Positions 37,159-56,338 of a DNA stretch of 64,000 bases are shown in pieces; position 1 is the first letter of the stretch, and every line of letters starts with the position of its first letter. The notes beneath the pieces were generated by a model that was given only the letters and a program-made list of their open reading frames with translations, was not told the origin of the DNA and ran no database searches. Source of the DNA: Micromonospora sp. WMMD1102 (lineage in GTDB: Bacteria > Actinomycetota > Actinomycetes > Mycobacteriales > Micromonosporaceae). Made by a program: the position numbers and the translations under genes. The DNA lies in assembly GCF_029626265.1 (NCBI RefSeq), contig NZ_JARUBN010000001.1, positions 2,728,001 to 2,792,000 on the forward strand, given 5' to 3'.

Positions 37159-37190
37159 CCCCGGGGCGGGACCTTGGTCCCGCCCCGGGG
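37159..37190. promoter_or_regulatory. 32-bp perfect palindrome: DosR-type box and/or terminator
   Basis: Arms ccccggggcgggacc (37159-37173) and ggtcccgccccgggg (37176-37190), centre tt. Its core gggaccttggtccc is GGGAC-N4-GTCCC, the DosR box core. It lies 68 bp upstream of the zinc ADH start. It could also terminate the serine-hydrolase transcript, though no T-run follows. Confidence 0.6.
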
Positions 37191-37257
37191 TGCGCACCGG
37201 CCCTGCCGACGGACCCGCCCGGGGCGCAGGTTGGAGGCAGGAGGATTGGAGGCACCG

Positions 37258-38298
37258 ATGAGAGCAGTGGTGTACGAGGGGCCGGGCCGGAAGTCCTGGC
37301 GGGACGTCCCCGACCCCACGATCACGGACCCCCGGGACGCGATCGTCAAGGTGGACACCGTGACGATCTGCGGCACCGACCTGCACATCCTGGCCGGTGA
37401 CGTACCCGAGGTCGAGCCGGGACGGATTCTCGGGCACGAGGCCGTCGGCACCGTCGTCGAGGTGGGTGCCGGGGTGACCGGGCTGAGCCCGGGTGACCGG
37501 GTGCTGGCCTCCTGCATCTCGGCGTGCGGCAAATGCCGATACTGCCGAGCGAGCCACTATGGACAGTGCCGCGACGGCGGCGGATGGCTCCTCGGCCACC
37601 GTGTCGACGGCGTGCAGGCGCAGTACGCGCGACTGCCCTTCGCCGACCTGTCCACGTACCGGTTGCCGGCGAACGTGCGCGACGAGGCCGCCGTGATGCT
37701 GGCCGACATCCTGCCCACCTCCTACGAGGTGGGTGTGCTCAACGGCCAGGTGCGGCCCGGCGACACCGTTGTGGTGGTCGGCAGCGGCCCGATCGGGCTC
37801 GCCGCGATCCTGACCGCCCGGCTGTACTCGCCGGCGCACATCGTCGCCGTGGACAGAGCGGCGAGCCGGTTGCGGGCGGCCAAGCAGTTCGGCGCGGACG
37901 TCGTGGTCGACGCCGACGAGGATCCCCGGCAGGTGGTCCTGGCCCTGACCGGCGGGCTCGGCGCGGACGTGGTGATGGAGGCGGTCGGCACGCCGCGGGC
38001 GTTCGAGACCTGCACCACGCTGGTCCGGCCGGGCGGCCGGGTCGCCAACATCGGCGTGCACGGCAAGCCGGCCGTGCTGCACCTGGAAGAGCTGTGGGGC
38101 CGCAACGTCACGATCACGACCGGGCTGGTCGACACGTACTCGACGCCGGACCTGCTCACCATGCTGGGCGCGGGTCAGCTCGACGTGGGACACATGATCA
38201 CGCACCGGTTCCCGCTCGACGACTTCATGGCGGCGTACGACGTCTTCGGCCGACCGGCCGAGACCGGCGCGCTGAAGGTCGTCCTCGGCCAGGACTGA
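37258..38298 (+). CDS. Zinc-dependent alcohol dehydrogenase
   Basis: 346 residues. Catalytic zinc ligands in TICGTDLH (Cys) and GHEAVG (His-Glu); structural zinc cysteines in CGKCRYCRASHYGQC; Rossmann motif VVVVGSGPIGLAA. Medium-chain dehydrogenase family, NAD(P)-dependent, reducing aldehydes or oxidising alcohols; in a fermentation context it would recycle NADH. Strong ribosome site (aggaggattggagg). It opens the stress/low-oxygen cluster and carries the most symmetrical DosR-type box of the window upstream. Confidence 0.92.
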   Translation: MRAVVYEGPGRKSWRDVPDPTITDPRDAIVKVDTVTICGTDLHILAGDVPEVEPGRILGHEAVGTVVEVGAGVTGLSPGDRVLASCISACGKCRYCRASHYGQCRDGGGWLLGHRVDGVQAQYARLPFADLSTYRLPANVRDEAAVMLADILPTSYEVGVLNGQVRPGDTVVVVGSGPIGLAAILTARLYSPAHIVAVDRAASRLRAAKQFGADVVVDADEDPRQVVLALTGGLGADVVMEAVGTPRAFETCTTLVRPGGRVANIGVHGKPAVLHLEELWGRNVTITTGLVDTYSTPDLLTMLGAGQLDVGHMITHRFPLDDFMAAYDVFGRPAETGALKVVLGQD

Positions 38299-38313
38299 TC
38301 CCTCGAATCGAGG

Positions 38314-38583
38314 TCAGTGCTCCAGGGTGACGGGGGTGTGGACGGCCTCCTCCAGGTCTCCGGAGGCGGCCACCAGGAGGCGGTGTCCCAGGTCCGACAG
38401 GGCACGGGCCACCGCGACCTCCTCCCCGACGAGCCCGGGGGTCGACCCGTCGGGCCGCAGCCGCGCCTGGCCGGCGCCGACCAGGTCGTCGCGGATCTCG
38501 TCGTAGAGCTGTGCCTCGGCGTACGTCCGGCCGTCCGCCGCGCCGACGAGGATCTCCACGTTCCAGCGCTTCACGGCGCTCAT
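38314..38583 (-). CDS. DUF1876 (Rv1738-like) dormancy protein
   Basis: 89 residues from ATG 38583 (MSAVKRWNVEILVGAADGRT). The domain (VEILVGAADGRTYAEAQLYD, GEEVAVARALSDLGHRLL) matches DUF1876, the family of Mycobacterium tuberculosis Rv1738, a strongly hypoxia-induced DosR-regulon protein with structural likeness to ribosome-hibernation factors. It follows the universal-stress-protein gene by 62 bp on the same strand, so both are probably driven from the box at 39619. Confidence 0.85.
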   Translation of the reverse strand: MSAVKRWNVEILVGAADGRTYAEAQLYDEIRDDLVGAGQARLRPDGSTPGLVGEEVAVARALSDLGHRLLVAASGDLEEAVHTPVTLEH

Positions 38584-38645
38584 CTCTGACTCCTCACTGA
38601 ACTGACCTGGTCGCCGGACCCGGTCGGGCGACCGCGCCCGGGTGG

Positions 38646-39521
38646 TCAGTCGGTGACCGACGCGAGTTCCCGGACGACGGCGACCGGGCAGTGCGCGTGG
38701 TGCAGCAGTTGCTGGCTGATCGAGCCGAGCAGCAGCCCGCCGAAGCCGCCGTGTCCCCGGGTGCCCACGATCACCAGCTGGGCGTCCCGGCTCGCGTCGA
38801 CCACCACCCGGCCGGCCGGCCCGGGGGTCACCTCGACGGTCACCCGGACCTGCGGGTATCTGCTCCGGCCGTCGGTGAGCACCCGGTCGAGTTCGGCCCG
38901 CTCGACCGCCGCCTGCTCCTCGGGGCCGTAGCCCGGCGGCTGCCAACGCGGGGCGATCGGCGTCCAGGCCCGGACCACCCGCAACTCGGCGTCGCGGGCC
39001 GCCGCCTGCGCGAAGGCGTACTCCAGGGCGAGCTGCGCACCGGGGGAGCCGTCCACGCCGACGACGACGGGGCCGTCCGGCCGCTCCCGCTCGCCCCGCA
39101 CCACGACGACGGGACAGTGCGCGTGTGCCGACACGGCGACGGTGGTGGAGCCGAGGAGGAGGCCGGTGAAGCCGCCGTGACCACGGCTGCCGAGTACCAG
39201 CAGCCGGGCCTGTCGGGACTGCTCCCGGAGCAGGACCGCCGCCGGACCGTCCTGCACGGTGCCGGTGACCACCACCCGGGGGTGGGTCTGGAAGGCGTCG
39301 AGGATCGCGGAGTCGAGCATCTTCCGCGCGTCCTCCCGGGCACCCTGGTCCGGCCAGCTCGTCGCCACCGGGGCGACCGTACTGGCCACGGCCGGCCACT
39401 CGAACGCGAAGAGCAGCGTCACCTGCGCACCGGTACGGGCGGCCTCGGCCAGCGCCCACGAGAGGGCGGCCCGGGCACCGTCGGAGGCGTCGTACCCGAC
39501 GACGATGGGGTGTGCGTTCAT
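38646..39521 (-). CDS. Tandem universal stress protein
   Basis: 291 residues with two UspA domains (1-145 and 150-291), each with the ATP-binding signature G-x2-G-x9-G-S/T: LGSRGHGGFTGLLLGSTT and VGTRGHGGFGGLLLGSIS. Two-domain USPs of this type (like Rv2623) are DosR-regulon members tied to entry into dormancy. Start ATG 39521 follows ggtggaggaagcc. Shares a 354-bp divergent region with the CBS gene. Confidence 0.93.
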   Translation of the reverse strand: MNAHPIVVGYDASDGARAALSWALAEAARTGAQVTLLFAFEWPAVASTVAPVATSWPDQGAREDARKMLDSAILDAFQTHPRVVVTGTVQDGPAAVLLREQSRQARLLVLGSRGHGGFTGLLLGSTTVAVSAHAHCPVVVVRGERERPDGPVVVGVDGSPGAQLALEYAFAQAAARDAELRVVRAWTPIAPRWQPPGYGPEEQAAVERAELDRVLTDGRSRYPQVRVTVEVTPGPAGRVVVDASRDAQLVIVGTRGHGGFGGLLLGSISQQLLHHAHCPVAVVRELASVTD

Positions 39522-39875
39522 GGCTTCCTCCACCGGCTTCCCGCCGGACTTCTCCGGGACACGCCCGCCGACCGGGCTCCCAGGACGGAACGTAACCGCG
39601 GCCGGGGCCCGCGGCGTAGGGCCGATGGTCCCGCCCGGCGGGTGACCCGCTGTCCGTGACGGCGGGCCGAACGGCATCCCGAGAGGAAGAAGGGTCGCTC
39701 GCCACCGGCGGGCGGGCCGTTCGACCCTGTCCGGTTCCGCCTCGGACGGCGTGCCATGGAGGGGAGGACCCGTTCCGGCGGGCAGACCGTGGAGATCCCG
39801 GTCCGTGTGCCGGCCGGCCGCACCCGTGGGTGCGGCCCGGACCTACCGGCGGGTGTGCCCGGGAAGGAGAAGGCC
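39522..39875. other. Divergent promoter region of usp and CBS genes
   Basis: No gene. It holds the dyad at 39619-39632, 98 bp from the USP start and 244 bp from the CBS start. An in-frame CBS extension from ATG 39756 exists but lacks family similarity and a ribosome site. Confidence 0.55.
39619..39632. promoter_or_regulatory. Candidate DosR-type box
   Basis: gggccgatggtccc: GGGCC-N4-GTCCC, one base from the GGGAC-N4-GTCCC core. Between the divergent USP and CBS genes. Confidence 0.5.
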
Positions 39876-40592
39876 ATGAAGAAATGGACGGTGCGGGACG
39901 TGATGACCGCCGACGTCGTGGCGGTGCCCGAGGACGCCAGCTACCGGACCATCGTCGACGTCCTCGCCGACGGCCGGATCAGCGCGGTGCCGGTGGTCGA
40001 CCCGACCGGGCAGGTCGTCGGCGTGGTCTCCGAGGCCGACCTGCTCTACAAGGTCGAGTTCGCCGGAACCGCCGGTGGACAGCGTCGCATCTTCCCCAGC
40101 CGGCGGCGCTCGCCCCGGGAGAAGGGCGCGGGCAGGACCGCGCGGGAGCTGATGAGCACGCCCGTGGTGACCGCCGGGGTGGACACCTCGCTGCCGGCCG
40201 CCGCACGTCTGATGACGGAGAAGGGCGTCAAGCGGCTGCCGGTGGTGGCGCCCGACGGCAGCCTGGTCGGGATCGTCTCCCGCGCCGACGTACTGAAGGT
40301 GCACCTGCGCCGGGACGAGGAGTTGCGGCGGGACGTCGTGGACGAGGTGCTGCGCCGGACGCTGTGGCTGGAGCCGTTCGAGGTGCGGGTCGTGGTCGAC
40401 GGCGGGGTCGTGACGCTGGACGGCCACCTCGACCGCCGCACCCTGGCCGAGCTCACGGTCCAGCTGGTCGGATCGGTGCTCGGCGTGGTCGCGGTGCGCG
40501 ACCACCTCAGCTACGACCTGGACGACGCCGAACTGGCCCGGTCCCGGTGGAACCGGTCGCACCCGTTCAGCGCCACCGGACCGTCGGCCTAG
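39876..40592 (+). CDS. CBS-pair and BON domain protein
   Basis: 238 residues from ATG 39876 (ggaaggagaaggcc upstream). Two CBS motifs (VRDVMTADVVAVPEDASY and ARELMSTPVVTAGVDTSLPA, each with a following VPVVDPTGQVVGVVSE or LPVVAPDGSLVGIVSR) bind adenine nucleotides; the C-terminal 70 residues form a BON domain (VRVVVDGGVVTLDGHLD). CBS proteins are typical of DosR-type stress regulons (compare Rv2626c, hypoxic response protein 1). Likely an energy-status sensor; partner unknown. Confidence 0.92.
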   Translation: MKKWTVRDVMTADVVAVPEDASYRTIVDVLADGRISAVPVVDPTGQVVGVVSEADLLYKVEFAGTAGGQRRIFPSRRRSPREKGAGRTARELMSTPVVTAGVDTSLPAAARLMTEKGVKRLPVVAPDGSLVGIVSRADVLKVHLRRDEELRRDVVDEVLRRTLWLEPFEVRVVVDGGVVTLDGHLDRRTLAELTVQLVGSVLGVVAVRDHLSYDLDDAELARSRWNRSHPFSATGPSA

Positions 40593-40612
40593 CCGCCTGC
40601 CGTGCGGCGGCT
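40591..40612 (+). terminator. Hairpin at the CBS gene stop
   Basis: agccgcc (40591-40597) pairs with ggcggct (40606-40612) around an 8-base loop; the left arm overlaps the TAG stop codon. Confidence 0.5.
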
Positions 40613-40642
40613 GCCGGGCAGGGCGGGGTTCGGCATCGCCAC

Positions 40643-40656
40643 GGGACCTTCGCCCC
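40643..40656. promoter_or_regulatory. Candidate DosR-type box
   Basis: gggaccttcgcccc (GGGAC-N4-GCCCC), 50 bp upstream of the DUF1876-GAPDH operon. The identical 14-mer occurs upstream of PPDK at 50416. Confidence 0.55.
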
Positions 40657-40706
40657 TGTCCGCCGGCCGCGGGTCGGGCCAGGCTGGAGATGCGGAGGTG
40701 ATCACG

Positions 40707-40994
40707 ATGGCTCGGGCGGAACGATGGACCGTCGACATCGTCATCGAGGAGTGCGACGACGAGCGGCGTACCCGGGCGGAGGCTCGGCTCCAGACACCGC
40801 AGCGGATCGGGCTGGTCGGTTACGGCGTGGCGTGGCGCAACCCGGCGGACCGGCGGGTGCCGGAGATCGGCGACGAACTCGCCGTCTCGCGGGCGCTCGC
40901 CGACCTCGCCCACGGGCTGCTGCTGGCGGCGGACGACACCGGACGGACGGCCCGCGCGCGACGACTCCGCGCGGCAGCGGGAGGTGCGAGATGA
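40707..40994 (+). CDS. DUF1876 (Rv1738-like) protein, second copy
   Basis: 95 residues, ATG 40707 with an excellent ribosome site (cggaggtgatc). Pattern [20 protein letters not shown], then [18 protein letters not shown] and [16 protein letters not shown] matches DUF1876 like the copy at 38314, with a basic C-terminal tail. Stop overlaps the GAPDH ATG (ATGA), so a presumed ribosome-associated stress factor is coupled to a glycolytic enzyme. Confidence 0.83.
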
Positions 40995-42004
40995 ACTACC
41001 GGATCGCGATCAACGGTTTCGGCCGGATCGGCCGCAACTACCTGCGCGGGCTGCTGGACCGGCGGCTCGCCGACGACGGCTTCGAGGTGGTCGCCGTGAA
41101 CGACCTCTGCGAGCCGAGGGTACTGGCCCACCTGCTGGCCTACGACTCGACGTTCGGCCCGCTCGACGCCGACGTCGCCGTCGACGGTACGGACCTGGTC
41201 GTCGACGGCCGCCGGATCGCCACGTTCGCCGAACGGGAGCCGGAACGGCTGCCCTGGGCCCGGCTCGGCGTCGACCTCGTCGTGGAGGCGACGGGCCGGC
41301 TGCGTACCCGGGACGCGGCGGGGGAGCACCTCAAGGCCGGCGCCCGACGGGTGCTGCTCTCCGCACCCGGCAAGGGCGTGGACGCCACGATCGTGGTCGG
41401 CGTCAACGAGTCGGCCTACCACCCGGCGCAGCAGGTGATCTCCGCCGCGTCCTGCACCACCAACTGCGCGGCGCCGATGGTCAAGGTGCTGGCCGACACC
41501 TTCGGGCTGTCCCGTGGCTACCTGACGACCGTGCACGCGTACACGAACGACCAGACGGTGCTGGACGCCCCGCACAAGGACCTGCGTCGGGCCCGGTCGG
41601 CCGCCGTCAACATCATCCCGACCGGCACCGGGGCGGCGAAGGCGATCGGCCTGGTGCTGCCGGAGGTCGCCGGCCGGCTGGACGGGGTGGCGCTGCGGGT
41701 GCCGGTGGAGGACGGCTCGATCTGCGACCTGACCTGCGAACTCGTCACCCCGGCGTCGGTGTCGGAGGTGAACGGGGCGTTCGCCGCGGCGGCGGCGGAC
41801 GGACCGCTGCACGGCGTGCTGCGCTACACCGACCGGCCGCTGGTCTCCCGGGACGTCGTCGGCGACCCGGCCTCCTGCGTCTTCGACGCCGCGCTCACCC
41901 AGGCGGCCGGGACGCTGGTAAAGGTCTTCGGCTGGTACGACAACGAGTGGGGCTATCTCAACCGGCTGCTGGACCTCACCGTGCTGATCGCCGGGCGGGA
42001 CTGA
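40991..42004 (+). CDS. gap: Type I glyceraldehyde-3-phosphate dehydrogenase
   Basis: 337 residues. NAD fold [14 protein letters not shown]; catalytic Cys155 in [13 protein letters not shown]; catalytic His in [10 protein letters not shown]; substrate loop [15 protein letters not shown]-terminal WYDNEWGY. Converts glyceraldehyde-3-phosphate to 1,3-bisphosphoglycerate with NAD. Its place in a stress cluster, coupled to DUF1876, suggests a dedicated low-oxygen isoform rather than the housekeeping gap, which is normally with pgk and tpi. Confidence 0.95.
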
Positions 42005-42017
42005 CGGCGGCTGGTGC

Positions 42018-42031
42018 GGGCCGTTGGTCCC
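42018..42031. promoter_or_regulatory. Candidate DosR-type box
   Basis: gggccgttggtccc (GGGCC-N4-GTCCC), 57 bp upstream of the Hsp20 start. Confidence 0.5.
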
Positions 42032-42088
42032 TGGTAGCCCGCCCCGGCCAGCAGGTGTGATGAAGAGGACGACGACGAGGAGGTCGTG

Positions 42089-42502
42089 ATGTCGACCATC
42101 AGCAAGGCCCGGGGCGGACTTCTCCCGCTGGACTGGGTCAGCAGCCTGTCCATGTTCCCGCTGCTGGCGCCGGCCATCCGGATCGAGGAGTTCCTGGAGG
42201 GCGAGACGTACACCCTCCGGGCGGAACTGCCCGGCACCGACCCGGCCAAGGACGTCACCGTGACGTGCGCGGACGGCGAGCTGCGGCTGCACGTCGTGCG
42301 CTCCGGCGAGCGGACGGACCGGACCCGCTCGGAGTTCCACTACGGATCCTTCTACCGCACCGTCCCGCTGCCGGCGGGCGCCCGGGAGGAGACCATAACC
42401 GCCGAGTACGCCGACGGGATCCTGACGGTCAAAGTGCTGGTCGGTACGCCCGAGAGTGCCGGCAGGAGCATCCCGATCGCGGTCGGGACGGACGGTAGCT
42501 GA
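42089..42502 (+). CDS. Hsp20/alpha-crystallin small heat-shock protein
   Basis: 137 residues from ATG 42089 (gaggaggtc before it). The alpha-crystallin domain spans about 30-130: IRIEEFLEGETYTLRAELPG, FHYGSFYRTVPLPAGA and the closing EYADGILTVKV, with an IPI C-terminal anchor (SIPIAV). ATP-independent holdase, like HspX of the mycobacterial DosR regulon. Followed by a clean terminator, so it is its own unit. Confidence 0.93.
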   Translation: MSTISKARGGLLPLDWVSSLSMFPLLAPAIRIEEFLEGETYTLRAELPGTDPAKDVTVTCADGELRLHVVRSGERTDRTRSEFHYGSFYRTVPLPAGAREETITAEYADGILTVKVLVGTPESAGRSIPIAVGTDGS

Positions 42503-42507
42503 CAGCG

Positions 42508-42532
42508 CCCGGCCCGCTCGACGCGGGCCGGG
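42508..42532 (+). terminator. Terminator after hsp20
   Basis: 10-bp arms cccggcccgc (42508-42517) and gcgggccggg (42523-42532), loop tcgac, 5 bp after the stop. Confidence 0.75.
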
Positions 42533-42594
42533 GCGGAGTCGGGCTCGGTCGGCGTACCGGGCCCGACGCCGTTGGCACGGCGATTGGGGACGTG

Positions 42595-43068
42595 ATGACA
42601 AGCACCCGCGTACTGCTGGCCGAGCAGCCGTTCCTCGCCGGCCTGGCGCCGGGCTGGCTGGACCGGCTCACCGCCTACGCCCACCCGGTGTACCGCAACC
42701 GCGGCTACCGGCTCTTCGCGGCCGGGCGGTCGGCGACCCGGTTCTGGCTGCTCCGCTCCGGGCAGGTGGCGCTGGACCTGCCCACGCACGGCCGGGGTGA
42801 CGTGGTGATCGAGACCGTCGGTGGGGGCGAGGTGCTGGGCTGGTCCTGGCTGTTCGCGCCGCACCGCTGGCAGTTCGGGGCGATGGCCGTCGAGCCGGTC
42901 CGGGCGGTCGAGTTCGACGCGTCCGGGGTACGGCACCTGATGGCGGACGACCCGACGCTCGGGTACGAGCTGAACCGCCGCTTCATGGCCGTCATGCTGG
43001 ACCGGCTCCAGGCCACCCGCACCCGCCTGCTCGACCTGTACGGCTACCCGGAGTACCGCGCCTCGTAG
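42595..43068 (+). CDS. Cyclic-nucleotide-binding domain protein without HTH
   Basis: 157 residues from ATG 42595 (GTG 42592 adjacent). A cNMP-binding beta-roll: VYRNRGYRLFAAGRSATRFW, LLRSGQVALDLPTHGRGD and GGGEVLGWSWLF, then a C-helix (LNRRFMAVMLDRLQATRTRLLDL). The Crp-type DNA-binding domain is absent, so it is not itself a transcription factor. Such short cNMP proteins recur in actinobacterial anaerobic-stress clusters. The stop codon is the first unit of a hexanucleotide repeat. Confidence 0.87.
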   Translation: MTSTRVLLAEQPFLAGLAPGWLDRLTAYAHPVYRNRGYRLFAAGRSATRFWLLRSGQVALDLPTHGRGDVVIETVGGGEVLGWSWLFAPHRWQFGAMAVEPVRAVEFDASGVRHLMADDPTLGYELNRRFMAVMLDRLQATRTRLLDLYGYPEYRAS

Positions 43069-43130
43069 CCGTAGCCGTAGCCGTAGCCGTGGCCGTAGCC
43101 GTGTGGTCCCGGGTACGTGTGGTCCCGGGT
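43065..43130 (+). repeat. Hexanucleotide microsatellite plus 16-bp tandem repeat
   Basis: Six units of gtagcc (43065-43100, one reads gtggcc) run from the stop codon of the cNMP gene; then gtgtggtcccgggt occurs twice (43101-43114 and 43117-43130). Nothing coding; possible slipped-strand variable site. Confidence 0.85.
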
Positions 43131-43171
43131 GCGTGTGCTGTCGGGCCGCAACCGGTGCGGGCGCCGTCCGG

Positions 43172-43276
43172 TCAGTCGGCGGACACCACCTTGATGGTCT
43201 GCTCGGCCGGCAGCCCGGGGCGCGTGCGCACCACAGCGCGCCTTGGCACGGCTCGGTTCGGCTGGTCGCGGGTCAC
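43172..43276 (-). CDS. Possible small ORF coupled to pflA
   Basis: 34 codons beginning with GTG 43276, which overlaps the activase stop (GTGA). The peptide [20 protein letters not shown] then GLPAEQTIKVVSAD is not recognised; it might be a remnant tail of a lost gene or a real small protein. The coupling geometry is the only positive evidence. Confidence 0.25.
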   Translation of the reverse strand: MTRDQPNRAVPRRAVVRTRPGLPAEQTIKVVSAD

Positions 43277-44061
43277 AGGGTGGTCAGGCCGTGCGCGCGG
43301 AACTGGTCGCGTACCCGCGCCAGCAGCTCCGGCGACGGCGGCGGGGTCTCCGCGAGCGGGAAGCGCAGCCCCAGGGCCGCGTACTTGGCCGCGCCGAGAC
43401 GGTGGAACGGCAGCACCTCGACCCGTTGCACCGTGCCGAGCGCGGCGGCCTGCCGGGCCACCGCCTCGACGTTGGCCGGCGCGTCGGTCAGGCCCGGCAC
43501 GAGCACGAACCGGATCCACATCGGATTGCCCCGGTCCGCGAGCCGGCGGGCGAACCGCAGCGTCGGGGCCAGCTCGCCGCCGGTCACCCTGCGGTAGGTC
43601 GCCGGGTCGCCGGACTTGATGTCGAGCAGCACCAGACTGGTGGCGTCCAGCAGTGCGTCGCCGGCCCGGTCGCCGAGCCCCCCCGAGGTGTCCAGCGCGG
43701 TGTGCAGGCCCGCGTCCCGGGCCCGGAGCAGCAGCGCCGCGGTGAAGGCCGGCTGGAGCAGCGGCTCGCCCCCGCTGACGGTGAGGCCGCCGCCGGAGAC
43801 CTGGATGAACCGGGTGAAGCCGGAGACCAGTCCCCAGAGCGCGTCGAGGTCGGTGCGCTGGCCGGGCCGGATCCGCCAGGTGTCCGGGTTCTGGCAGTAC
43901 CGGCAGCGCAGCGGGCAGCCGGCCAGGAACACCACGAACCTGGTGCCGGGACCGTCCACCCCGGTCGAGACGTCCCAGGAGTGCACGGCCCCGGTGATCG
44001 GACCGGCCCCGGTGGTCGCCCCGGCCCCGGTGACCGCAGCGGTTCGGGCGGCGGTGTTCAC
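43273..44061 (-). CDS. pflA: Pyruvate formate-lyase activating enzyme
   Basis: 262 residues. Radical-SAM cluster motif [12 protein letters not shown] (C-x3-C-x2-C), the glycine motif [17 protein letters not shown], and [16 protein letters not shown] typical of PflA. It would abstract a hydrogen from the glycine of pyruvate formate-lyase, making the glycyl radical under anoxia. GTG 44061 overlaps the pfl stop (GTGA), so the two genes are co-translated. The N-terminal 25 residues are an Ala/Gly/Thr-rich extension. The enzyme looks intact although its partner gene is frameshifted. Confidence 0.92.
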
Positions 44062-46285
44062 AGCGAACCGTGGAAGGTGCGGGAGATGACGTCGCGCTGC
44101 TGTTCCGGGGTGAGCCGGACGAAGTTGACCGCGTAGCCGGAGACCCGGATCGTCAACTGCGGGTAGCGCTCGGGGTGGGCCATCGCGTCGACCAGGGTGG
44201 CCCGGTCGAGCACGTTCACGTTCATGTGGTAGCCGCCGGCGTCGGTGTAGCCGTCCAGTACGCCGACCAGGTTGGTCGTCTGCTCCTCGCGGGTCCGCCC
44301 GAGTCCGTCCGGGGTGATGGTGCTGGTCAGCGAGATCCCGTCCCGGGCGCTGGCATACGGCAGCTTCGCCACCGACAGCGCCGAGGCGACCAGCCCGTGC
44401 CGGTCCCGGCCGTTGCCGGGGTTGGCACCGGGCGCGAACGGCTCACCCGCGCGCCGCCCGTCCGGGGTGTTCCCGGTGTGCCTGCCGTAGACCACGTTCG
44501 AGGTGATGGTCAGCACCGACAGCGTCGGCTCGGCACTGCGGTACGTCGGCTGCCGGCGCAACCGGTCCATGAACGCCTCGACCAGCCAGACGGCGATCGC
44601 GTCGGCCCGGTCGTCGTGGTTGCCGTAGCACGGGAAGTCTCCGTCGACGGCGAAGTCGACGGCCAGCCCGGTCTCGTCGCGCAACACCTTCACCTTGGCG
44701 TGCTTGATCGCCGAGAGGCTGTCCACCGCGACGGAGAGCCCGGCGATGCCGGTGGCGAGGAACCGGTGCACCGGGTAGTCGTGCAGGGCCATCTCCAGCC
44801 GCTCGTAGGCGTACCTGTCGTGCATGTAGTGGATGACGTTGAGCGCGTCGACGTAGGTGGCGACCAGCCAGTCCAGCGTCCGCTCGAAGGCCGCCACCAC
44901 CTCGTCGTAGTCGAGCACCTCGCCGCCGACCGGTGGCGTCGCCGGGGCCACCTGGGCACCGGTGATCTCGTCCCGGCCGCCGCGTAGAGCAGCGCCTTGG
45001 CCACGTTGGCCCGGGCGCCGAAGAACTGCATGTCCTTGCCGACCCGCATCGCCGAGACGCAGCAGGCGATCGCGGTGTCGTCGCCGAACCCAGGGCGCAG
45101 CAGCTCGTCGTTCTGGTACTGCACCGCGCTGGTGTCCAGCGACACCTGGGCGCAGTACCGCTTGAAGCCGTCGGGCAGGGCCGGCGACCACAGCACGGTG
45201 AGGTTGGGCTCCGGTGCCGGGCCGAGATTGTGCAGGGTGCGCAGGAACCGGAAGGCGGTCCGGGTCACCAGGGTACGGCCGTCCCGGCCCATCCCGCCGA
45301 GCGCCTCGGTGACCCAGGTCGGGTCGCCGGAGAAGAGCTGGTCGTACTCGGGGGTGCGCAGGAAGCGGATGATCCGCAACTTGATCACCAGGTCGTCGAC
45401 GAGTTCCTGCGCCTGCTCCTCGGTCAGCCGCCCCTCGGCCAGGTCCCGCTGGAGATAGACGTCGAGGAAGGTGGCGGTGCGGCCGAGCGACATCGCCGCC
45501 CCGTTCTGCTCCTTGGTCGCCGCCAGGTAGCCGAAGTAGAGCCACTGGATCGCCTCCCGGCCGGTGCTGGCCGGGCCGGAGATGTCGTACCCGTAGCCGG
45601 CCGCCATCGTCTTCAGCTCGTCCAGCGCCCGGACCTGCTCGGCCAGCTCCTCCCGGTCCCGGATCACCGCCGGGGAGGAGCGGTACGCGTCGAGCCGGGC
45701 CCGGTCGGCGAGCCGGCCGGCGACGAGCTGGTCGACACCGTAGAGCGGGATCCGGCGGTAGTCGCCGATGATCCGTCCCCGGCCGTAGGAGTCCGGCAGC
45801 CCGGTGATCACGTGCGAGCGGCGGGCCCGCCGGACCGCGTCCGGGTACGCGTCGAAAACCCCGTCGTTGTGCGTCTTGCGGTGCCGGGTGAACGTCTCCA
45901 GCACCCGCGGATCGAGGCTGCGGCCGTACGCCTCCAGGGCGGTCTGCACCATCCGGATCCCACCGGCCGGCAGGATCGCCCGGCGCAGCGGCGCGTCGGT
46001 CTGCAACCCGACGATCAGCTCGTGCTCCCGGTCGAGGTATCCCGGCCCGTGCGAGGTGATCGTCGACGGGGTGCCGGCGTCGACGTCGTAGATCCCCCGG
46101 CGCCGCTCCTCGGCGAAGAGCGGCCCGAGCCCGTCCCAGAGCGCGGTGGTGCGCGCCGTGGGGCCGGCCAGGAAGGCGCCGTCCCCCTCGTAGGGCGTGT
46201 AGTTCTGCCGGATGAACGCGGCGACGTCGATCCGGTGCCGCCATTCCGTGCCCTCGAATCCGCGCCAGGCGTCGAGCGTGGTCAT
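44058..46285 (-). pseudogene. pflB: Pyruvate formate-lyase, frameshifted
   Basis: From ATG 46285 the frame is a normal PFL through FRTL-type catalytic cysteines Cys408-Cys409 ([18 protein letters not shown]) to [13 protein letters not shown] at about 44985. There the frame breaks; [18 protein letters not shown] onward, including the glycyl-radical motif RVSGYAVNF (Gly codon 44136-44138), continues in another frame to 44058. PFLs read LLYAINGG before the Asp-Glu, so seven bases are missing; restoring them gives 744 residues. As given, no active enzyme can form. Converts pyruvate and CoA to formate and acetyl-CoA when intact. A box lies upstream at 46404. Confidence 0.9.
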
Positions 46286-46403
46286 CGTCTCCTCCTGTCG
46301 GCTCGGGGCCGGGTCGGGCAGTCGCCGGGACTGCCGCGTACCGCCGGTCCGCCCTCGCTCCGGGGTCACCCCCAGCCTCGCCCCGACCGGACCGGGCGGG
46401 GCA

Positions 46404-46417
46404 GGGCCACAGGTCCC
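46404..46417. promoter_or_regulatory. Candidate DosR-type box
   Basis: gggccacaggtccc (GGGCC-N4-GTCCC), 119 bp upstream of the pfl start on the reverse strand. Confidence 0.45.
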
Positions 46418-46481
46418 GTCGGGGCCGGGACCTCGGTACCGACCGGCGGTGTGTGACGCGACGCTCCCGGCCGGACCGAGG

Positions 46482-47075: not shown

Positions 47076-47158
47076 GATCTGTCCTCTCCGGATCGGGACG
47101 TGCAGGCCGGCCGGCCGACCGGCCGGACCAACGAGATGCACCTCGATGTCCCGGGAAC

Positions 47159-47623: not shown

Positions 47624-47634
47624 CGCGGGCCTCG

Positions 47635-50319
47635 CTAACGGCTGTCAGAGGTGGTCGACGTCCGGGCGGCGACCGCGGCGCGGCCGGCCTCCAGCCGGGC
47701 GACCGGGACCCGGAACGGCGAGCAGGAGACGTAGTCCAGGCCGGCGTCGTGGAAGAAGTGGATCGAGTCCGGCTCGCCGCCGTGCTCGCCGCAGACCCCG
47801 ATCCTCAGGTCGGGGCGGGCCGCCCGGCCCTCCTCGGTGGCGATCCGCACCAGCCGCCCCACCCCCGAGGTGTCGATCGACTCGAACGGGGAGACGCCGA
47901 AGATGCCCATCCCCAGGTAGCGGGGGAAGAACTCGCCCTCCACGTCGTCCCGGGAGAAGCCCCAACCGAGCTGGGTCAGGTCGTTGGTGCCGAACGAGAA
48001 GAACTCCGCCACCCCGGCGATCTCACCGGCGGTCAACGCCGCCCGGGGTACCTCGATCATCGTGCCGATCGGCACCGGGGGCAGCCCGTCGGTCTCGGCG
48101 AGGATCTGCTCCGCCTCGGCGCGTACCGCAGCCAGTTCCGGCGCGGTCGCGACCAGCGGCACCATGATCTCGGGGCGTGGCGACAACCCGCGCGCCGCGC
48201 AGTCGGCGGCGGCCTGCGCGATCGCCCGGACCTGCATGGCGAAGAGCCCGGGGATCACCAGGCCGAGCCGCACCCCGCGCAGGCCCAGCATCGGGTTCTG
48301 CTCGTGCATCCGGCGTACCGCGGCCAGCAGCGCGCCGTCCCGGCCCGGATCCCGGCCCAGCGCCTCGGCCCGGGCCACCCGGGCGGTCAGCTCGGCCAGC
48401 GGCGGCAGGAACTCGTGCAACGGCGGGTCCAGCAGCCGTACCGTCACCGGCAGGCCGTCCATCGCCTCGAAGATCTGCACGAAGTCAGCGCGCTGCGACG
48501 GCAGCAGGGCGGCCAGCGCTGCCGCCCGCTCACCGTCGCCGTCGGCCAGGATGAGCCGCTCGACCAGGGCCCGGCGCTCGCCGAGGAACATGTGCTCGGT
48601 GCGGCACAGCCCGATCCCTTCGGCACCGAACCGCCGGGCCCGGCCCGCGTCCACACCGGTGTCGGCGTTCGCCTGGACCCCCAGCCGCCGCACCCGGTCG
48701 GCGTGCGTCACCAACCGGTGTACGGCGTCCAGCAGCGCGTCCGTCCCGGCTGCCGGCACATCGCCCTGGAGGTACCTGGCGACGGGCGAGGGACGCACCG
48801 GCAGCTCACCCGGGAAGACCTCCCCGGTCGTGCCGTCGATCGAGACGACGTCTCCCTCGGACACCACCGTCCCGGCCACGCTGAACCGCCTGCCGGTCGC
48901 GTCGACGTCCAGCGCCTCCGCCCCGCACACGCAGGTCCGCCCCATGCCGCGCGCCACCACGGCGGCGTGCGACGTCTTGCCGCCCCGGGAGGTGAGGATG
49001 CCCTGTGCGGCGATCATGCCGGGCAGGTCGTCCGGGTTCGTCTCCCGGCGTACCAGGATCACCCGCTCGCCGGTAGCCGCCCACTGTGCCGCCCGGACCG
49101 CGTCGAAGACCACCCGTCCGCTGGCCGCGCCGGGCGAGGCCGGTATGCCGACCGCGAGCGGCTTAGGCGCCGCCGTACGGTCGAAGCGCGGGAACATGAG
49201 CTGGTCGAGTTGCGCACCGGTGACCCGGAGCAGCGCCTCGTCCAGCTCGATCACACCCTCGTCGACCAGTTGGGCGGCGATGGTGAACGCCGCCGCCGGG
49301 GTGCGCTTGCCGACCCGGGTCTGCAACATCCACAGTTTCCCGCGCTCGATCGTGAACTCGATGTCGCACAGGTCCCGGTAGTGCCGCTCCAGCATCGCCA
49401 TGATCGAGGTCAACTGGGCGAAGCTGCGCGCGTCGAGCCGCTCCAACTCCTCCAGCGGCACCGGGGTCCGGATGCCGGCGACCACGTCCTCGCCCTGCGC
49501 GTTGGCCAGGTAGTCGCCGTACACGCCAGTGGCGCCGGTGGCCGGGTCGCGGGTGAAGGCCACCCCCGTACCGGAGTCGGGGCCGAGGTTGCCGAAGACC
49601 ATCGCCATCACGTTCACGGCGGTACCGAGGTCGTGCGGGATGTGCTCCTGCCGCCGGTACAGCACGGCCCGCTCGGTGTTCCAGGACGCGAAGACCGCCT
49701 CGATGGCCTGGTAGAGCTGCTCGTGCGGCGCCTGCGGGAAGTCCCGGCCGGTGTGGTCGTGGAAGACCTTCTTGTAGACGTCGACCAGGTGCCGCAGGTC
49801 CGCCTCGGTCAGCTCGGCGTCGTTGGCGACCCCGGCGTGTGACCGGTGCGCCGCCAACTCCCGCTCGAACGCCTCGGCCGGCACGCCCCGCACGGTCCGG
49901 CCGAACATCGCGATCAGCCGCCGGTACGAGTCCCAGGCCGCCCGGGGATCGCCGGAACACGCCGCCAGCCCCGGTACGCTCGCGTCGGTCAGTCCGATGT
50001 CGAGAATCGTCTCCATCATCCCGGGCATGGAGTATTTTCCGCCGGACCGCACCGAGAGCAGCAGCGGGTCCCGGGGATCGCCGAACACCTTGCCGAACCG
50101 GTCCTCGACCAGTCGCAGATGCCGGTTCACCTGGTCGAACAGTCCTGCCGGGACGGTGCCGGTGGCCAGGTAGCCGCGGCACGCCTCGGTGCTGACCGTG
50201 AACCCGGGCGGCACCGGCAGCCCCAGCCGGGTCATCTCGGCCAGGTTCGCGCCCTTGCCGCCGAGCAGCTCCGCCAGGTCCTTGCCGCCCTCGATGAAGT
50301 CGAACACGTACTTGGGCAT
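47635..50319 (-). CDS. ppdK: Pyruvate, phosphate dikinase
   Basis: 894 residues, full family length. N-terminal ATP-grasp domain (GGKGANLAEMTRLGLPVPPG), central swivelling domain with phospho-His in TSRGGKTSHAAVVARGMG, and C-terminal PEP/pyruvate barrel (LGLRGVRLGL, FSFGTNDLTQLGWGFSRDD, CGEHGGEPDSI). Interconverts pyruvate + ATP + phosphate and PEP + AMP + PPi; under low oxygen it can work glycolytically with PPi or supply PEP. ATG 50319 (GTG 50322 adjacent). Preceded by a box whose 14-mer is identical to that before DUF1876-gap. Confidence 0.95.
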   Translation of the reverse strand: MPKYVFDFIEGGKDLAELLGGKGANLAEMTRLGLPVPPGFTVSTEACRGYLATGTVPAGLFDQVNRHLRLVEDRFGKVFGDPRDPLLLSVRSGGKYSMPGMMETILDIGLTDASVPGLAACSGDPRAAWDSYRRLIAMFGRTVRGVPAEAFERELAAHRSHAGVANDAELTEADLRHLVDVYKKVFHDHTGRDFPQAPHEQLYQAIEAVFASWNTERAVLYRRQEHIPHDLGTAVNVMAMVFGNLGPDSGTGVAFTRDPATGATGVYGDYLANAQGEDVVAGIRTPVPLEELERLDARSFAQLTSIMAMLERHYRDLCDIEFTIERGKLWMLQTRVGKRTPAAAFTIAAQLVDEGVIELDEALLRVTGAQLDQLMFPRFDRTAAPKPLAVGIPASPGAASGRVVFDAVRAAQWAATGERVILVRRETNPDDLPGMIAAQGILTSRGGKTSHAAVVARGMGRTCVCGAEALDVDATGRRFSVAGTVVSEGDVVSIDGTTGEVFPGELPVRPSPVARYLQGDVPAAGTDALLDAVHRLVTHADRVRRLGVQANADTGVDAGRARRFGAEGIGLCRTEHMFLGERRALVERLILADGDGERAAALAALLPSQRADFVQIFEAMDGLPVTVRLLDPPLHEFLPPLAELTARVARAEALGRDPGRDGALLAAVRRMHEQNPMLGLRGVRLGLVIPGLFAMQVRAIAQAAADCAARGLSPRPEIMVPLVATAPELAAVRAEAEQILAETDGLPPVPIGTMIEVPRAALTAGEIAGVAEFFSFGTNDLTQLGWGFSRDDVEGEFFPRYLGMGIFGVSPFESIDTSGVGRLVRIATEEGRAARPDLRIGVCGEHGGEPDSIHFFHDAGLDYVSCSPFRVPVARLEAGRAAVAARTSTTSDSR

Positions 50320-50415
50320 CACCGGCCGCCTCTCGTCTCCCTCGACGCGGATCGTCACCTTGTTGGTAACAGGGTGGGAGCCGCGCGTCGTAGGGCCGGA
50401 CGGGACCGTGCCGGC

Positions 50416-50429
50416 GGGACCTTCGCCCC
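50416..50429. promoter_or_regulatory. Candidate DosR-type box upstream of ppdK
   Basis: gggaccttcgcccc, 97 bp upstream of the start; identical to the 14-mer at 40643. A second partial copy, gggccggacgggacc, lies at 50393-50407. Confidence 0.55.
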
Positions 50430-50439
50430 GACGGGGCGC

Positions 50440-50471
50440 GGGGCGCAGCCGACGGTCGCCGGCTGCGCCCC
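50440..50471 (-). terminator. Terminator after the acyl-CoA carboxylase gene
   Basis: 12-bp arms ggggcgcagccg (50440-50451) and cggctgcgcccc (50460-50471), 8-base loop, 20 bp beyond the leftward stop. Confidence 0.75.
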
Positions 50472-50491
50472 GGGGCTCGGGCGAGCCGGGC

Positions 50492-53400: not shown

Positions 53401-56056
53401 GCGGCTGGGCGAACCAGCCGAAGACCACGCCCCGGGCGAGGTCGGCGACCACCGGGAAGCGGACCTGTGTCGCGGCGATCAGCCGCTCCAGGGCGAGACC
53501 GGCCGGCTCGCGCAGGCTCTCGTCCGGCGGCGGCTCCCGCAGCCAGTCGCGCAGCAGCGCAGCGACGACGACGGCGGCGTCGGCGGCGGCGCGCTGCTGG
53601 GCGAGGAAGATCCGGAACACCGCCGCCTCGAGTTCCGGCGACCGGTCCAGTTCGGTGACGCCGTAGTGCCCGAGCGCCCGGGCGAGCTTGGCCTGGAACG
53701 CGTCCGGCAGCCCGGCCCGCTCGACGTCGAGGCTCTGTAGGTAGGTGTGGAAGTACTCGCGGGCGCTGTGCACGTGCGCCTCGCCGCCGCCGTCCTCGCC
53801 GCCGGGCCGGTTGCGGCTCAGCTCGGCGAGGTTGGCGAAGACGTCGACGAGGTCGAGTTCGGCGACCAGCGGCCGGTGGCCGGCCTCGATGGCCGTCCGC
53901 CGGGTGGCGAGGTAGTCGTCGAGCACCCGGCGGTCGTCGTGCGGGTCGACGTCGAAGCCGAGCAGCAGGCCGCGCAGGTCCTCCTGGCCGCGCCGGACGC
54001 GCTGGTCCGCCGGAGCCTCGTCGGGGGCGGCCGGCAGGTCCAGCTTGACGGAGGCGGCGGCCGGGCCGTCGTCGGTGCCGTCGCCGAGCGGCTCCAGCCG
54101 CAGCAGCGGGGCGCCGGCCTGCACCTGGCTGCCGACCGAGACGGTGCACTCCTTCAGCCGTGCCTTGAACGGCGCCCGCAGCACCGTCTCCATCTTCATG
54201 GCCTCCAGCACCAGCACCGGCGCGCCGGCCTCGACCTCGGCACCGACCCGCAGCGGGGTGGCGACCACCAGCGCGGGCATGGGGGAGCGGAGCACGCCGC
54301 CCTCGTCCCGACTGACCCGGTGCGTCACCCCGGCCACCTCGACCAGGTGGGTCGGTCCGTGCGTGCCGGTGAGCAGCCGGTACCGGTTGCCGTTGACGAC
54401 GATCTGCCCGCTGTGCCGGTCGAAGCGGTCGAGTTCGACGTCGGCGGTGCGGATCCCGCCGCCGGACTCGATGCCGACCCGGAACCGGTGCGGCCCGACC
54501 CGGGCCACCCGCAGCCGGTAGCCGGCCCCGCGCAACTTGAGGTCCAGTGGCCGGCCGCTGGCGTGCTGCACCTGTGGGCGCCCGCCGGCCGCCGTGGCCA
54601 GCAGCCGCCGTCGTTCGGCGCGCTCCTCCTCCTCGTACGTCTCGATCGCCGCCGCCGCCAGCGCGACGGCGGAGTGCCGGTGCGCGACCAGCCGGCCCTC
54701 GCCGCGGACCCGGTCGATCCAGCCGGTGTCCGCGCTGGCGTCGATGACCTCGGGCTGGTCGAGCAGGTCGAGCACGAAGCTCTTGTTCGTCGCGCCGCCC
54801 TCGATCACCACAGTGGTCTCGGCCATCGCCCGGCGCAGCCTGCCGAGTGCCTCGGCACGGTCCCGGCCGTAGGCGATGACCTTGGCGATCATCGAGTCGA
54901 AGTCGGCGGGGATGGTGTCACCCTCGCTGACGCCGGTGTCCACCCGGATGCCCGGCCCGGCCGGCAGGTCCAGCCTGGCGATCCGGCCGGGGGAGGGCGC
55001 GAAGTCGCGGTCCGGGTCCTCGGCGTTGAGCCGGGCCTCGACGGCGTGCCCGCGCTCCACCGGTGGCCGGCCCTCCAGCCGGCCACCCGAGGCCACCTGC
55101 AACTGTGCCTTGACCAGGTCGAACCCGGTGGTGGCCTCGGTGATCGGATGCTCGACCTGAAGCCGCGTGTTCACCTCCAGGAACGCGAACAGCCGGTCGC
55201 CGGGGTGGTAGAGGAACTCGACTGTCGCCGCACCCCGGTAACCGACCGCGACGGCGAGCCGCTCGGCCGACGCCTTCAGCTCGGCCGCCTGCTCCGGAGC
55301 GAGCACCGGCGACGCCGACTCCTCGATCACCTTCTGGTTGCGCCGCTGCACCGAACAGTCCCGGACGCCGAGCGCCCAGGCGGTGCCCTGACCGTCGGCG
55401 ATCACCTGGACCTCGACGTGCCGGGCGCCGGTGACCAGGCGTTCCAGGAAGACGACACCGCTGCCGAAGGCCCGTGCCGCCTCCTGGCGGGTCCGCTCGA
55501 AGGCGTCGGCGAGTTCGGCGTCGTTGGTGATCACCCGGATGCCGCGTCCACCGCCACCGGCGGTCGCCTTCAACATCAGCGGATAACCGATCTCGGCCGC
55601 CGCCACCAGCGCGGCGTCCAGGGTCTCGACCGCGCCCCGGCTCCACGGCGCGACCGGCACCCCGACCTCCTCGGCGAGGAGCTTCGCGCCGATCTTGTCG
55701 CCGAGTTGGCGCATGGCGTCCGGGCTCGGCCCGACGAAGGTGACCCCGATCTTCTCGCAGAGTTCCGCGAAGGCCGGGTCCTCGGCGACGAAGCCCCAGC
55801 CGACCCAGGCGGCGTCGGCGCCGGTCCGCAGCAGCGCGCGCTCCAGCGCCGCCATGTCCAGGTACGGGCGGGCGGCGGCCGGACCGAGATCGTACGCGAT
55901 GTCCGCTTCCCGCACGAACGTGGCGGTACGGTCGACTTCGGTGTAGAGGGCGACGGTCTCGATCCGCCTCCCGGTCTCCGCAGCCAGCTCCCGGACCGCG
56001 TGGATGAGCCGCATCGCGGCCTCACCACGGTTGACGATGGCGATACGGCTGAACAC
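50492..56056 (-). CDS. Single-chain acetyl-/acyl-CoA carboxylase, 1,854 residues
   Basis: All parts on one chain. Biotin carboxylase domain at about 1-450 (GGGGRGIRVI glycine loop, EVNTRLQVEHPITE); biotin-carrier domain with biotinyl Lys621 in VLEAMKMETV; a long central region (about 660-1,200) like that of eukaryotic ACC; carboxyltransferase halves at about 1,300-1,850 (VAGINVGAQPYWNAEA; LVVLANLSGFDGSP; ISRYHGGAFVVFSKTLN). The domain order equals eukaryotic ACC rather than the split AccA/AccD of most actinobacteria. GTG 56056 has ggaggggtcgg before it. A perfect GGGGC-N4-GCCCC dyad is 41 bp upstream. Confidence 0.92.
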   Translation of the reverse strand: MFSRIAIVNRGEAAMRLIHAVRELAAETGRRIETVALYTEVDRTATFVREADIAYDLGPAAARPYLDMAALERALLRTGADAAWVGWGFVAEDPAFAELCEKIGVTFVGPSPDAMRQLGDKIGAKLLAEEVGVPVAPWSRGAVETLDAALVAAAEIGYPLMLKATAGGGGRGIRVITNDAELADAFERTRQEAARAFGSGVVFLERLVTGARHVEVQVIADGQGTAWALGVRDCSVQRRNQKVIEESASPVLAPEQAAELKASAERLAVAVGYRGAATVEFLYHPGDRLFAFLEVNTRLQVEHPITEATTGFDLVKAQLQVASGGRLEGRPPVERGHAVEARLNAEDPDRDFAPSPGRIARLDLPAGPGIRVDTGVSEGDTIPADFDSMIAKVIAYGRDRAEALGRLRRAMAETTVVIEGGATNKSFVLDLLDQPEVIDASADTGWIDRVRGEGRLVAHRHSAVALAAAAIETYEEEERAERRRLLATAAGGRPQVQHASGRPLDLKLRGAGYRLRVARVGPHRFRVGIESGGGIRTADVELDRFDRHSGQIVVNGNRYRLLTGTHGPTHLVEVAGVTHRVSRDEGGVLRSPMPALVVATPLRVGAEVEAGAPVLVLEAMKMETVLRAPFKARLKECTVSVGSQVQAGAPLLRLEPLGDGTDDGPAAASVKLDLPAAPDEAPADQRVRRGQEDLRGLLLGFDVDPHDDRRVLDDYLATRRTAIEAGHRPLVAELDLVDVFANLAELSRNRPGGEDGGGEAHVHSAREYFHTYLQSLDVERAGLPDAFQAKLARALGHYGVTELDRSPELEAAVFRIFLAQQRAAADAAVVVAALLRDWLREPPPDESLREPAGLALERLIAATQVRFPVVADLARGVVFGWFAQPLLRRNRARVYARVRAHLRHLDARPDAPDRAERIAEMVRSTEPLVRLLGQRLVRDHLDNAVMLEVLTRRYYGNKGLTGVATRQAAGCTFVVAQRADSRLVSAAVRFDALGGALRGLAELAGGGDAVDADVYLGWENQPEDFDEMANALLEVVNAHPLPAQVRRLTTTVAGRGGAVMHHHFTFRPVSTETTDGQPAGTGDGQRAGMAEERLIRGLHPYIAQRMQIERLREFDLTRLPSADEEVYLFQGVARENPSDQRLVAFAQVRDLTELREQDGRLVALPTTEDTVAACLDSIRRAQSRRPSKTRFNTNRIVIYVWPPVGLTREEMEMIAGRVRPTTAGAGLEEILFIARQRDPATGALTKVGVRISFDVTGGAELTIGEPPTEPVEPLDDYRLKVLRASSRNTVYPYELTGLLGDFVEHDLDDDHTLVPVDRPKGHNRAAIVAGLVSTPTARHPQGVTRVVLLGDPTKSLGALSEPECRRVIAALDLAQRLGVPLEWYALSAGARISMTSGTENMDWVAAALKRIVEFTQAGGEINIVVAGINVGAQPYWNAEATMLMHTRGILVMTPESAMVLTGKQALDFSGGVSAEDNFGIGGYDRVMGPNGQAQYWAPDLAAARDLLMAHYDHTYLAPGEATPRRAASTDPVDRDIRDFPHAVPGSDFNTVGEIFSAEANPDRKKPFDIRTVMRALADQDHPVLERWAGMADAETAVVQDVYLGGIPVCLLGIESRTVPRRGFPPTDGPDSYTAGTLFPASSKKAARAINAASGNRPLVVLANLSGFDGSPESMRKLQLEYGAEIGRAVVNFRGPIVFCVISRYHGGAFVVFSKTLNPGMTVLALEGSFASVLGGAPAAAAVFAGDVDARTAADPRVRDLEARVASASGADRAALTAELDELRLTVRAEKLGEVATEFDRVHNIQRAVEVGSVDAVVRAAELRPRVIEAIEAHLRRPAGAGQRTDDSAAPAPVG

Positions 56057-56096
56057 CCGACCGACCCCTCCGGTAGACCCACGACGAACCCGCCAC

Positions 56097-56110
56097 GGGG
56101 CGATCGCCCC
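56097..56110. promoter_or_regulatory. DosR-type dyad upstream of the carboxylase
   Basis: ggggcgatcgcccc is a perfect 14-bp palindrome of form GGGNC-N4-GNCCC, 41 bp from the GTG start. A further palindrome, caaaagcttttg, is at 56196-56207 in the same divergent gap. Confidence 0.5.
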
Positions 56111-56338
56111 CGCAGTGATCACTTTTCTGCCTGCGGACCGGCGGCGCCATGTCGTAGGCACCGAACAGTATGCGGCCCGGTTTGTAGGAACCACACAAAA
56201 GCTTTTGGCTGTGTCCTCGCCTCGGACCCGACCGGGAACCGGTCACGAATCGAGAAGCGGAGGCGGCGGCGCCGCACATAGCGTGACCGTCATGGCCCGT
56301 CGGGCCGGAACAGACCATCTGCCTGCTGGAGGGTTGCG

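Follow-up and report, generated by a model that had tools for sequence, protein, structure and literature searches.

The window analysed here is a 64-kb stretch (64,000 nucleotides; C1:2728001-2792000) of an 8.92 Mb Micromonospora genome, judged to stand near Plantactinospora within the Micromonosporaceae by its carboxylase, which shares 91% identity (best segment) with the P. mayteni enzyme. Its genes and dyad sites of interest are collected in Table 1, in which scores and matrix positions refer to a weight matrix built from related genomes (relatives' matrix, described below). The Rv1738-like gene and the glyceraldehyde-3-phosphate dehydrogenase gene (gapdh) form a probable operon, and the 37–51 kb part also contains a gene that matches F420H2_quin_red marginally. 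The radical SAM protein was named as putative pyruvate formate-lyase activating enzyme (activase) from its position beside pfl. A single-chain carboxylase of 1,854 aa with biotin carboxylase, biotin, ACC_central and carboxyltransferase domains is encoded at 50492-56056. In this assembly, the pfl reading frame is interrupted between positions 44957 and 44990, and it is a single called frame in 16/16 relatives; PFL-like and Gly_radical domains are present, with the radical SAM activase adjoining. The split may be a sequencing error or recent decay, the pathway being either broken in this strain or obscured by wrong base calls.

Table 1. Genes and dyad sites in the window (positions in the 64-kb stretch; scores from the relatives' matrix)
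Feature	Position	Strand	Matrix position	Score	Remarks
Predicted OsdR-type box, ADH	37168..37181	+	37166	19.4	centre 83.5 bp before start codon; core of repeat 37159-37190
Zinc-type alcohol dehydrogenase (ADH)	37258..38298	+			ADH_N, ADH_zinc_N; start predicted, frame 37174-38298
Rv2632c-like protein	38314..38583	-			PF08962
Universal stress protein (usp)	38646..39521	-			two USP stretches; start predicted, frame 38646-39677
Predicted OsdR-type box, usp	39619..39632	+	39617	18.2	104.5 bp before predicted usp start
Predicted OsdR-type box, CBS/BON	39714..39727	+	39712	15.4	134.5 bp before predicted start; missed by the sequence-only reading
CBS-CBS-BON protein	39855..40592	+			start predicted, frame 39756-40592
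Predicted OsdR-type box, Rv1738-like	40643..40656	+	40641	16.0	57.5 bp before gene
Rv1738-like protein	40707..40994	+			best solved relative Rv1738 (4wpy)
Glyceraldehyde-3-phosphate dehydrogenase	40991..42004	+			4-bp overlap with Rv1738-like gene
Predicted OsdR-type box, hsp20	42018..42031	+	42016	17.6	61.5 bp before hsp20
Hsp20 small heat-shock protein	42086..42502	+			
Cyclic-nucleotide-binding-domain (cNMP) protein	42592..43068	+			
Radical SAM protein	43273..43986	-			Radical_SAM, Fer4_12
Pyruvate formate-lyase (pfl)	44058..46285	-			two frames; Gly_radical domain in second piece
Predicted OsdR-type box, pfl	46404..46417	-	46402	11.8	125.5 bp before pfl
Second, weaker pfl box	46427..46440	-	46425	9.8	GGGACCTCGGTACC on + strand; missed by the sequence-only reading
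Pyruvate phosphate dikinase (ppdK)	47635..50358	-			
Possible second ppdK box	50392..50407	-		<7	10.3 with published-site matrix
Predicted OsdR-type box, ppdK	50416..50429	-	50414	14.2	64.5 bp before ppdK
Carboxylase-upstream site	56097..56110	-		4.5	GGGGCGATCGCCCC; 3.4 with published-site matrix

In a sequence-only reading of this DNA, seven sites of one dyad architecture (GGGNC-N4-GNCCC) had been proposed to mark a low-oxygen regulon of the DosR/OsdR type. All seven are in the sequence, the ADH site lying one base later than claimed, and the 32-bp palindrome described around it consists of two perfect 15-bp arms flanking TT. The 14-mer said to recur identically, GGGACCTTCGCCCC, is indeed shared by the sites at 40643 and 50416. 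The additional box at 39714 would stand 35 bp before the CBS/BON start if the longer frame from 39756 applies, and the one at 46427 lies 23 bp further upstream than that at 46404 and scores 0.3 with a matrix of published sites. The two ppdK sites at 50392 and 50416 are likewise 23 bp apart, centre to centre.

The chance rate given earlier for the degenerate pattern, one match per 3–4 kb, does not hold here: 551 matches were counted in the genome, that is one per 16.2 kb, against 1575 when the pattern was read backwards, and the density of 3.95 per 64 kb is one third of the value in shuffled sequence. The 64-kb window contains 11 matches versus 11.8 in dinucleotide shuffles, three of the 11 (22147, 47817 and 58264) falling in coding DNA. 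Because the shuffles give as many, the bare count in the window is uninformative; its comparison with shuffles was rejected as a misleading test, and counts in the actual genome together with a weight matrix were needed instead. Since the genome rate is only one per 16.2 kb, the nine matches at 37159-56110 (18,952 bp) are an excess (1.17 expected, Poisson P 4e-6, in a region chosen after the fact); they comprise the seven sites, 39714-39727 in the usp/cbs gap and 47817 inside ppdK. The earlier reading had suggested comparing intergenic with coding DNA. In a 1.48 Mb control set of 74 stretches from this genome (L013, which overlaps L042, was left out; L068, with probably real sites, was kept), no general preference of the pattern for DNA upstream of genes was seen: the 104 matches were divided into 79 in coding DNA (called genes), 13 at most 300 bp upstream of a gene and 12 elsewhere.

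With the stricter form GGGACCTTSGNCCC, seven matches were found in the genome and one with the reversed control. Three lie in the window, one upstream of a phosphoketolase gene near the regulator locus described below, two in tandem at C1:7100302/7100327 (C1 denoting the contig) and one at C1:1890565; the three genomic copies of GGGACCTTCGCCCC (40643, 50416 and C1:1890565) are among these seven. A search with GGGCCGWTSGNCCC returned nine lines, which include three in the window and count a single palindromic site twice; its reversed control also returned nine. Around 54 strong intergenic sites, 15 ordered second-site counts were obtained at 15–70 bp versus about 1.4 expected, four of the 15 at 21–24 bp, which is suggestive of a preferred tandem spacing and comprises too few cases to claim one. 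A −10 element at a fixed distance past the boxes gave no clear peak in 71 site–gene pairs. At C1:7100302-7100340 (L082), two strong boxes with a spacing of 25 bp precede a 195-aa gene (7099613-7100200, minus strand), a probable further member of the regulon.

The relatives' matrix was compiled from 26 boxes upstream of osdR (17 distinct) at 26 of 29 loci, with the genome under study left out and no site taken from L170, L191 or L196; the selection of these boxes relied on a degenerate version of that dyad, and the matrix is independent of this genome, not of the pattern. Its eight best matches in the window are six of the seven sites and the two new ones at 39,714 and 46,427. At a score of at least 11, seven matches were obtained in the 18,952 bp at 37159-56110 (0.33 expected) versus 26 in the 1.48 Mb control, and none in the remaining 45 kb of the window; the proposed enrichment at these genes was thus confirmed. 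The coding match at 47817 scored 2.4. A second matrix, made from 26 S. coelicolor 16-mers (published-site matrix), exceeded 11 for only three boxes of the window, 39619 (14.7), 42018 (14.1) and 39714 (11.7), with lower scores at 40643 (7.2), ADH (6.2), ppdK (3.8) and pfl (2.8), and gave 10.0 and 12.0 at the coding places 47817 and 39069. The preferred reading is that Micromonosporaceae have their own flavour of the box, over the alternative that the published matrix is too narrow.

A search for a DosR/OsdR homologue elsewhere in the genome had been suggested. A survey of the GerE, HisKA_3 and GAF_2 domains of the genome yielded one candidate pair: a single OsdR match at E 1e-60 (osdR, C1:3402396-3403034, 212 aa), at a distance of about 0.6 Mb from the window, with a DevS-like kinase gene beside it that has two GAF domains (osdK, C1:3403107-3404732, convergent with osdR; GAF-GAF-HisKA_3-HATPase). 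The best solved relative of OsdR is full-length DevR (3c3w; 248 bits over residues 1-209, ungapped). Residues D54, T82, K104, K179, K182 and N183 are kept, of which D54 is taken here to be the phospho-acceptor aspartate and K179, K182 and N183 the DNA-contacting residues of DosR. The first GAF domain of OsdK matched best to 2vzw, which has a generic PDB name and is presumably the GAF domain of DosT, and to four DevS GAF structures; it keeps a His and a Tyr aligned to DevS H149/Y171 at an equal spacing of 22, the numbering and heme-pocket roles of the DevS residues being assumed. This domain is predicted to be of the DosT/DevS-like heme type.

Boxes also surround the regulator genes. Two lie between osdR and the divergent gene, at C1:3402346 (TAGGACCTTCGGCCCT) and 3402290, and in the vicinity one stands at 3408414 (AGGGCCGGTCGGCCCT) upstream of an acyl-CoA synthetase/acetyltransferase fusion gene and another at 3412982 upstream of the phosphoketolase gene, with an acetate kinase gene located between these two genes. 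The fusion protein may, it is assumed, act as a protein acetyltransferase and not as an ATP-forming enzyme. A strong box (20.1) was also noted at C1:3400121 (L002:7119); the gene that begins about 60 bp downstream of it (3399452-3400069, minus strand) encodes 205 aa.

OsdR was found at E 1e-60 or better in 124/150 genomes of the family. The strict box occurred 420 times in these 124 genomes versus 179 times with reversed-pattern controls (kinship uncorrected), and 36 times versus 31 in the 26 genomes without OsdR, six of which were assigned to this group by elimination; 13 of the 36 came from the single genome G081. The regulator of G081, which has 13 strict boxes and no OsdR at E 1e-60, may have diverged, be absent from the assembly or have been lost. 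In the best-matching genomes, taken at one locus per genome, a box is centred 42–44 bp before osdR in 28/30, 26 by pattern and two (L168 and L170) in which the 14-mer has A in place of its first G. The hexamer TA[GC][AG]AA precedes the osdR start in all 30 (L168-L197), by 12 bp in 29 and 13 bp in one. On account of this hexamer at 12–13 bp and the box at 42–44 bp, the arrangement suggests a leaderless osdR transcript from a conserved promoter with an activator bound next to the −35 position, which offers a handle for promoter work.

Conservation of the targets was followed in the same family. A pfl gene (E 1e-40) was present in 17 of 61 genomes, the present one included, and in none of the ten among the 61 that are without OsdR. 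Among the 16 relatives with pfl, a box lay at most 200 bp upstream in nine, versus 19 of 1,090 control genes taken from the genome under study (binomial P 1.5e-12, ignoring kinship); in one (L230) it lay 231 bp upstream, and in six no box was found up to 300 bp upstream. Other genes in these 16 loci were labelled at 50% identity or more. Boxes were found before ppdK (3/6), cNMP (4/6), CBS (2/2), ADH (1/2), gapdh (1/2), OsdK (1/3), OsdR (1/2) and acyl-CoA synthetase (1/1) genes, and before none of the usp (0/2), second usp (0/1), hsp20 (0/1), Rv2632c-like (0/1) and carboxylase (0/2) genes in these loci; the activase, mostly placed closely behind pfl, was boxed in 0/13. Altogether 23/60 labelled genes including pfl were boxed versus 31/184 unlabelled neighbours in the same 16 loci.

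ADH was present in 5 of 24 genomes searched, including the one under study, and its box was found in G078 (at −83), G057 (−85) and G001 (−73); the ADH gene of G072, in which no OsdR was found, and the second ADH copy of G001 were without a box. G078 and the Plantactinospora mayteni locus L088 count once because they are identical over the 4,038 bp compared. Since the long arms of the 32-bp repeat are gone in G078 and a pattern dyad (GGGACGTTGGTCCC) is kept at −83, the dyad and not the long arms would be the conserved unit at ADH. The cluster is arranged differently in P. mayteni, where ADH, CBS and cNMP are nevertheless each boxed. The nitrate reductase gene narG was not found in the genome under study. 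Mutual exclusion of pfl and narG was considered and rejected (17 genomes with pfl, 18 with narG and three with both out of 61; Fisher P 0.35), and no box was found upstream of narG in the four loci examined of 24 matches. In another genome (G029), known here by coordinates only, a strict box stands about 170 bp before a narG match (C42:16991-17176), as at S. coelicolor narG2.

The site upstream of the carboxylase, which had been counted into the regulon, does not share these properties: its scores are low with both matrices (Table 1), and it is not conserved above its surroundings. At least 566 of 593 candidate stretches held relatives of this carboxylase, the 80 kept among the matches listed were all actinobacterial by title, and 36 of these 80 loci were examined. 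In favour of the carboxylase as a further OsdR target, GGGGCATTCGTCCC stands before the P. mayteni gene at the same −48; the dyad, however, is identical at 11/14 positions between the two genomes and the whole upstream stretch at 143/164 columns, which makes the dyad unremarkable, and the 35 other carboxylase loci had no match at that place, with three matching elsewhere within 260 bp. Regulation of the carboxylase by OsdR through 56097-56110 is unlikely, and the dyad is probably due to chance. Long unbroken runs of identity with P. mayteni were observed in the carboxylase upstream region at 56057-56216 (minus strand), which may hold a regulatory element or an RNA leader.

Chance could be extended to all sites if GC-rich DNA yielded dyads from which those before genes had been picked, and the shuffles that match the window count, the three coding matches, the chance-like carboxylase site and the good backing of only three sites by the published-site matrix are what such an account would expect. 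It is extremely improbable for the set, and unlikely for six of the seven sites, given a genome density of one third of the shuffle value, the result of the relatives' matrix in the region and the placement of boxes conserved in relatives. A related question is whether the boxes serve a different regulator that recognises a similar dyad, such as one of the other NarL/LuxR-type response regulators of this genome; there are 72 GerE-domain matches in the genome, and so generic a dyad could serve several. This is quite improbable, as the same box precedes osdR in 28/30 genomes, the strict-box excess is confined to genomes with OsdR, a single OsdR match was obtained in the genome under study at E 1e-60, and binding of this motif by OsdR has been published for S. 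coelicolor (main text of PMC5069765). The ADH repeat allows a further reading, in which transcription termination or RNA hairpin formation would account for some dyads and this repeat would end the preceding gene: it starts 12 bp past the stop codon of the preceding frame and folds strongly (MFE −67.5 kcal/mol for 93 nt, z −3.3). Against this, G078 retains the dyad at −83 in the absence of the long arms and the remaining boxes have short arms, and such a role is very improbable.

The DosR/OsdR-type regulon proposed from the sequence therefore stands, with enriched sites, an OsdR and a DevS-like kinase in the genome, and osdR itself boxed in 28/30 of the best-matching family genomes. The dyads at 37168, 39619, 39714, 40643, 42018, 46404 (with 46427) and 50416 are very probably OsdR operator boxes, as predicted from placement and matrix scores. 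Placement and conservation of boxes, the regulator, its conserved residues and the co-occurrence of strict boxes with it across genomes were computed; binding by OsdR, activation and not repression, oxygen sensing and the metabolic role are deduced, the OsdK–OsdR mechanism from homology and from the binding work published for S. coelicolor (main text of PMC5069765). OsdK would sense a change in oxygen (or in heme redox state, NO or CO) through its heme and phosphorylate OsdR, which would bind boxes 57–135 bp before the predicted start codons and activate adh, the usp/cbs divergon, the Rv1738-like–gapdh pair, hsp20, pfl with its activase, and ppdK. PFL would then cleave pyruvate, and acetyl-CoA or acetyl phosphate would be converted to acetate with a gain of ATP, while PPDK, GAPDH and ADH would adjust carbon and redox. 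When the boxed phosphoketolase and acyl-CoA synthetase/acetyltransferase genes are added, the targets in the window suggest a programme of stress protection and fermentative ATP formation at low oxygen.

Among known systems, the DosR/DevR regulon of M. tuberculosis has a box with a GGGAC-N4-GTCCC-like core, and Rv1738 and CBS proteins are among its members. Its regulator and heme-GAF kinase are homologous to those described here; M. tuberculosis has DosT plus DevS, whereas one kinase gene stands beside osdR in the present genome. The boxes in the window stand before usp, CBS, hsp20 and Rv1738-like genes, and usp and hspX are listed as DosR-regulon members in the main text of PMC5069765. The regulon type is already known from Streptomyces coelicolor, where, according to the main text of Urem et al. 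(2016; PMC5069765), it is governed by OsdKR (SCO0203/SCO0204), and OsdR binds AGGGCCGATCGGCCCT-type sites at targets including usp-adh and ppdK. Both organisms have an OsdR/DosR-type regulator with a kinase and the same type of box (the published sites include AGGGACCTTCGGCCCC and CGGGACCTTCGGCCCT), and in both, as far as that text goes, osdR itself, usp-adh and pyruvate phosphate dikinase are boxed. They differ in that osdR and osdK form an operon in S. coelicolor (PMC5069765) and are convergent here, and that osdKR and the usp/adh/ppdK cluster are separated by about 0.6 Mb here; several window boxes also obtain low scores with the published-site matrix. In addition, pfl with its activase, hsp20, the Rv1738-like gene, phosphoketolase and the acyl-CoA synthetase fusion are boxed here, a difference from S. 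coelicolor as far as the text of PMC5069765 goes, and the boxed narG2HJI operon of S. coelicolor (PMC5069765) contrasts with the absence of a narG match in the present genome.

The main text of PMC5069765 does not contain the words formate, fermentation or phosphoketolase and does not name pfl. Literature linking pyruvate formate-lyase to DosR or Streptomyces, to actinobacterial hypoxia or USP, or to Actinoplanes or Micromonospora was not found and may be in print elsewhere. The payload, with its conserved wiring of pfl into an OsdR-type regulon, looks new. PFL is destroyed by oxygen and filamentous actinomycetes are supposedly aerobic; pfl under an OsdR switch makes it testable how such organisms survive the loss of oxygen. 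In a wider reading, for which the balance is about even, the DosR-type switch of Micromonosporaceae would drive true fermentation for ATP through PFL together with phosphoketolase and acetate kinase, and perhaps also through the acyl-CoA synthetase fusion, replacing or accompanying the nitrate respiration that this switch controls in Streptomyces. The switch would represent an ancestral module of actinobacteria that lineages have coupled to different pathways of anaerobic energy generation. The oxygen switch of the DosR type, known from Mycobacterium and Streptomyces, is extended by these data to Micromonosporaceae with a candidate regulator, kinase, box and list of targets.
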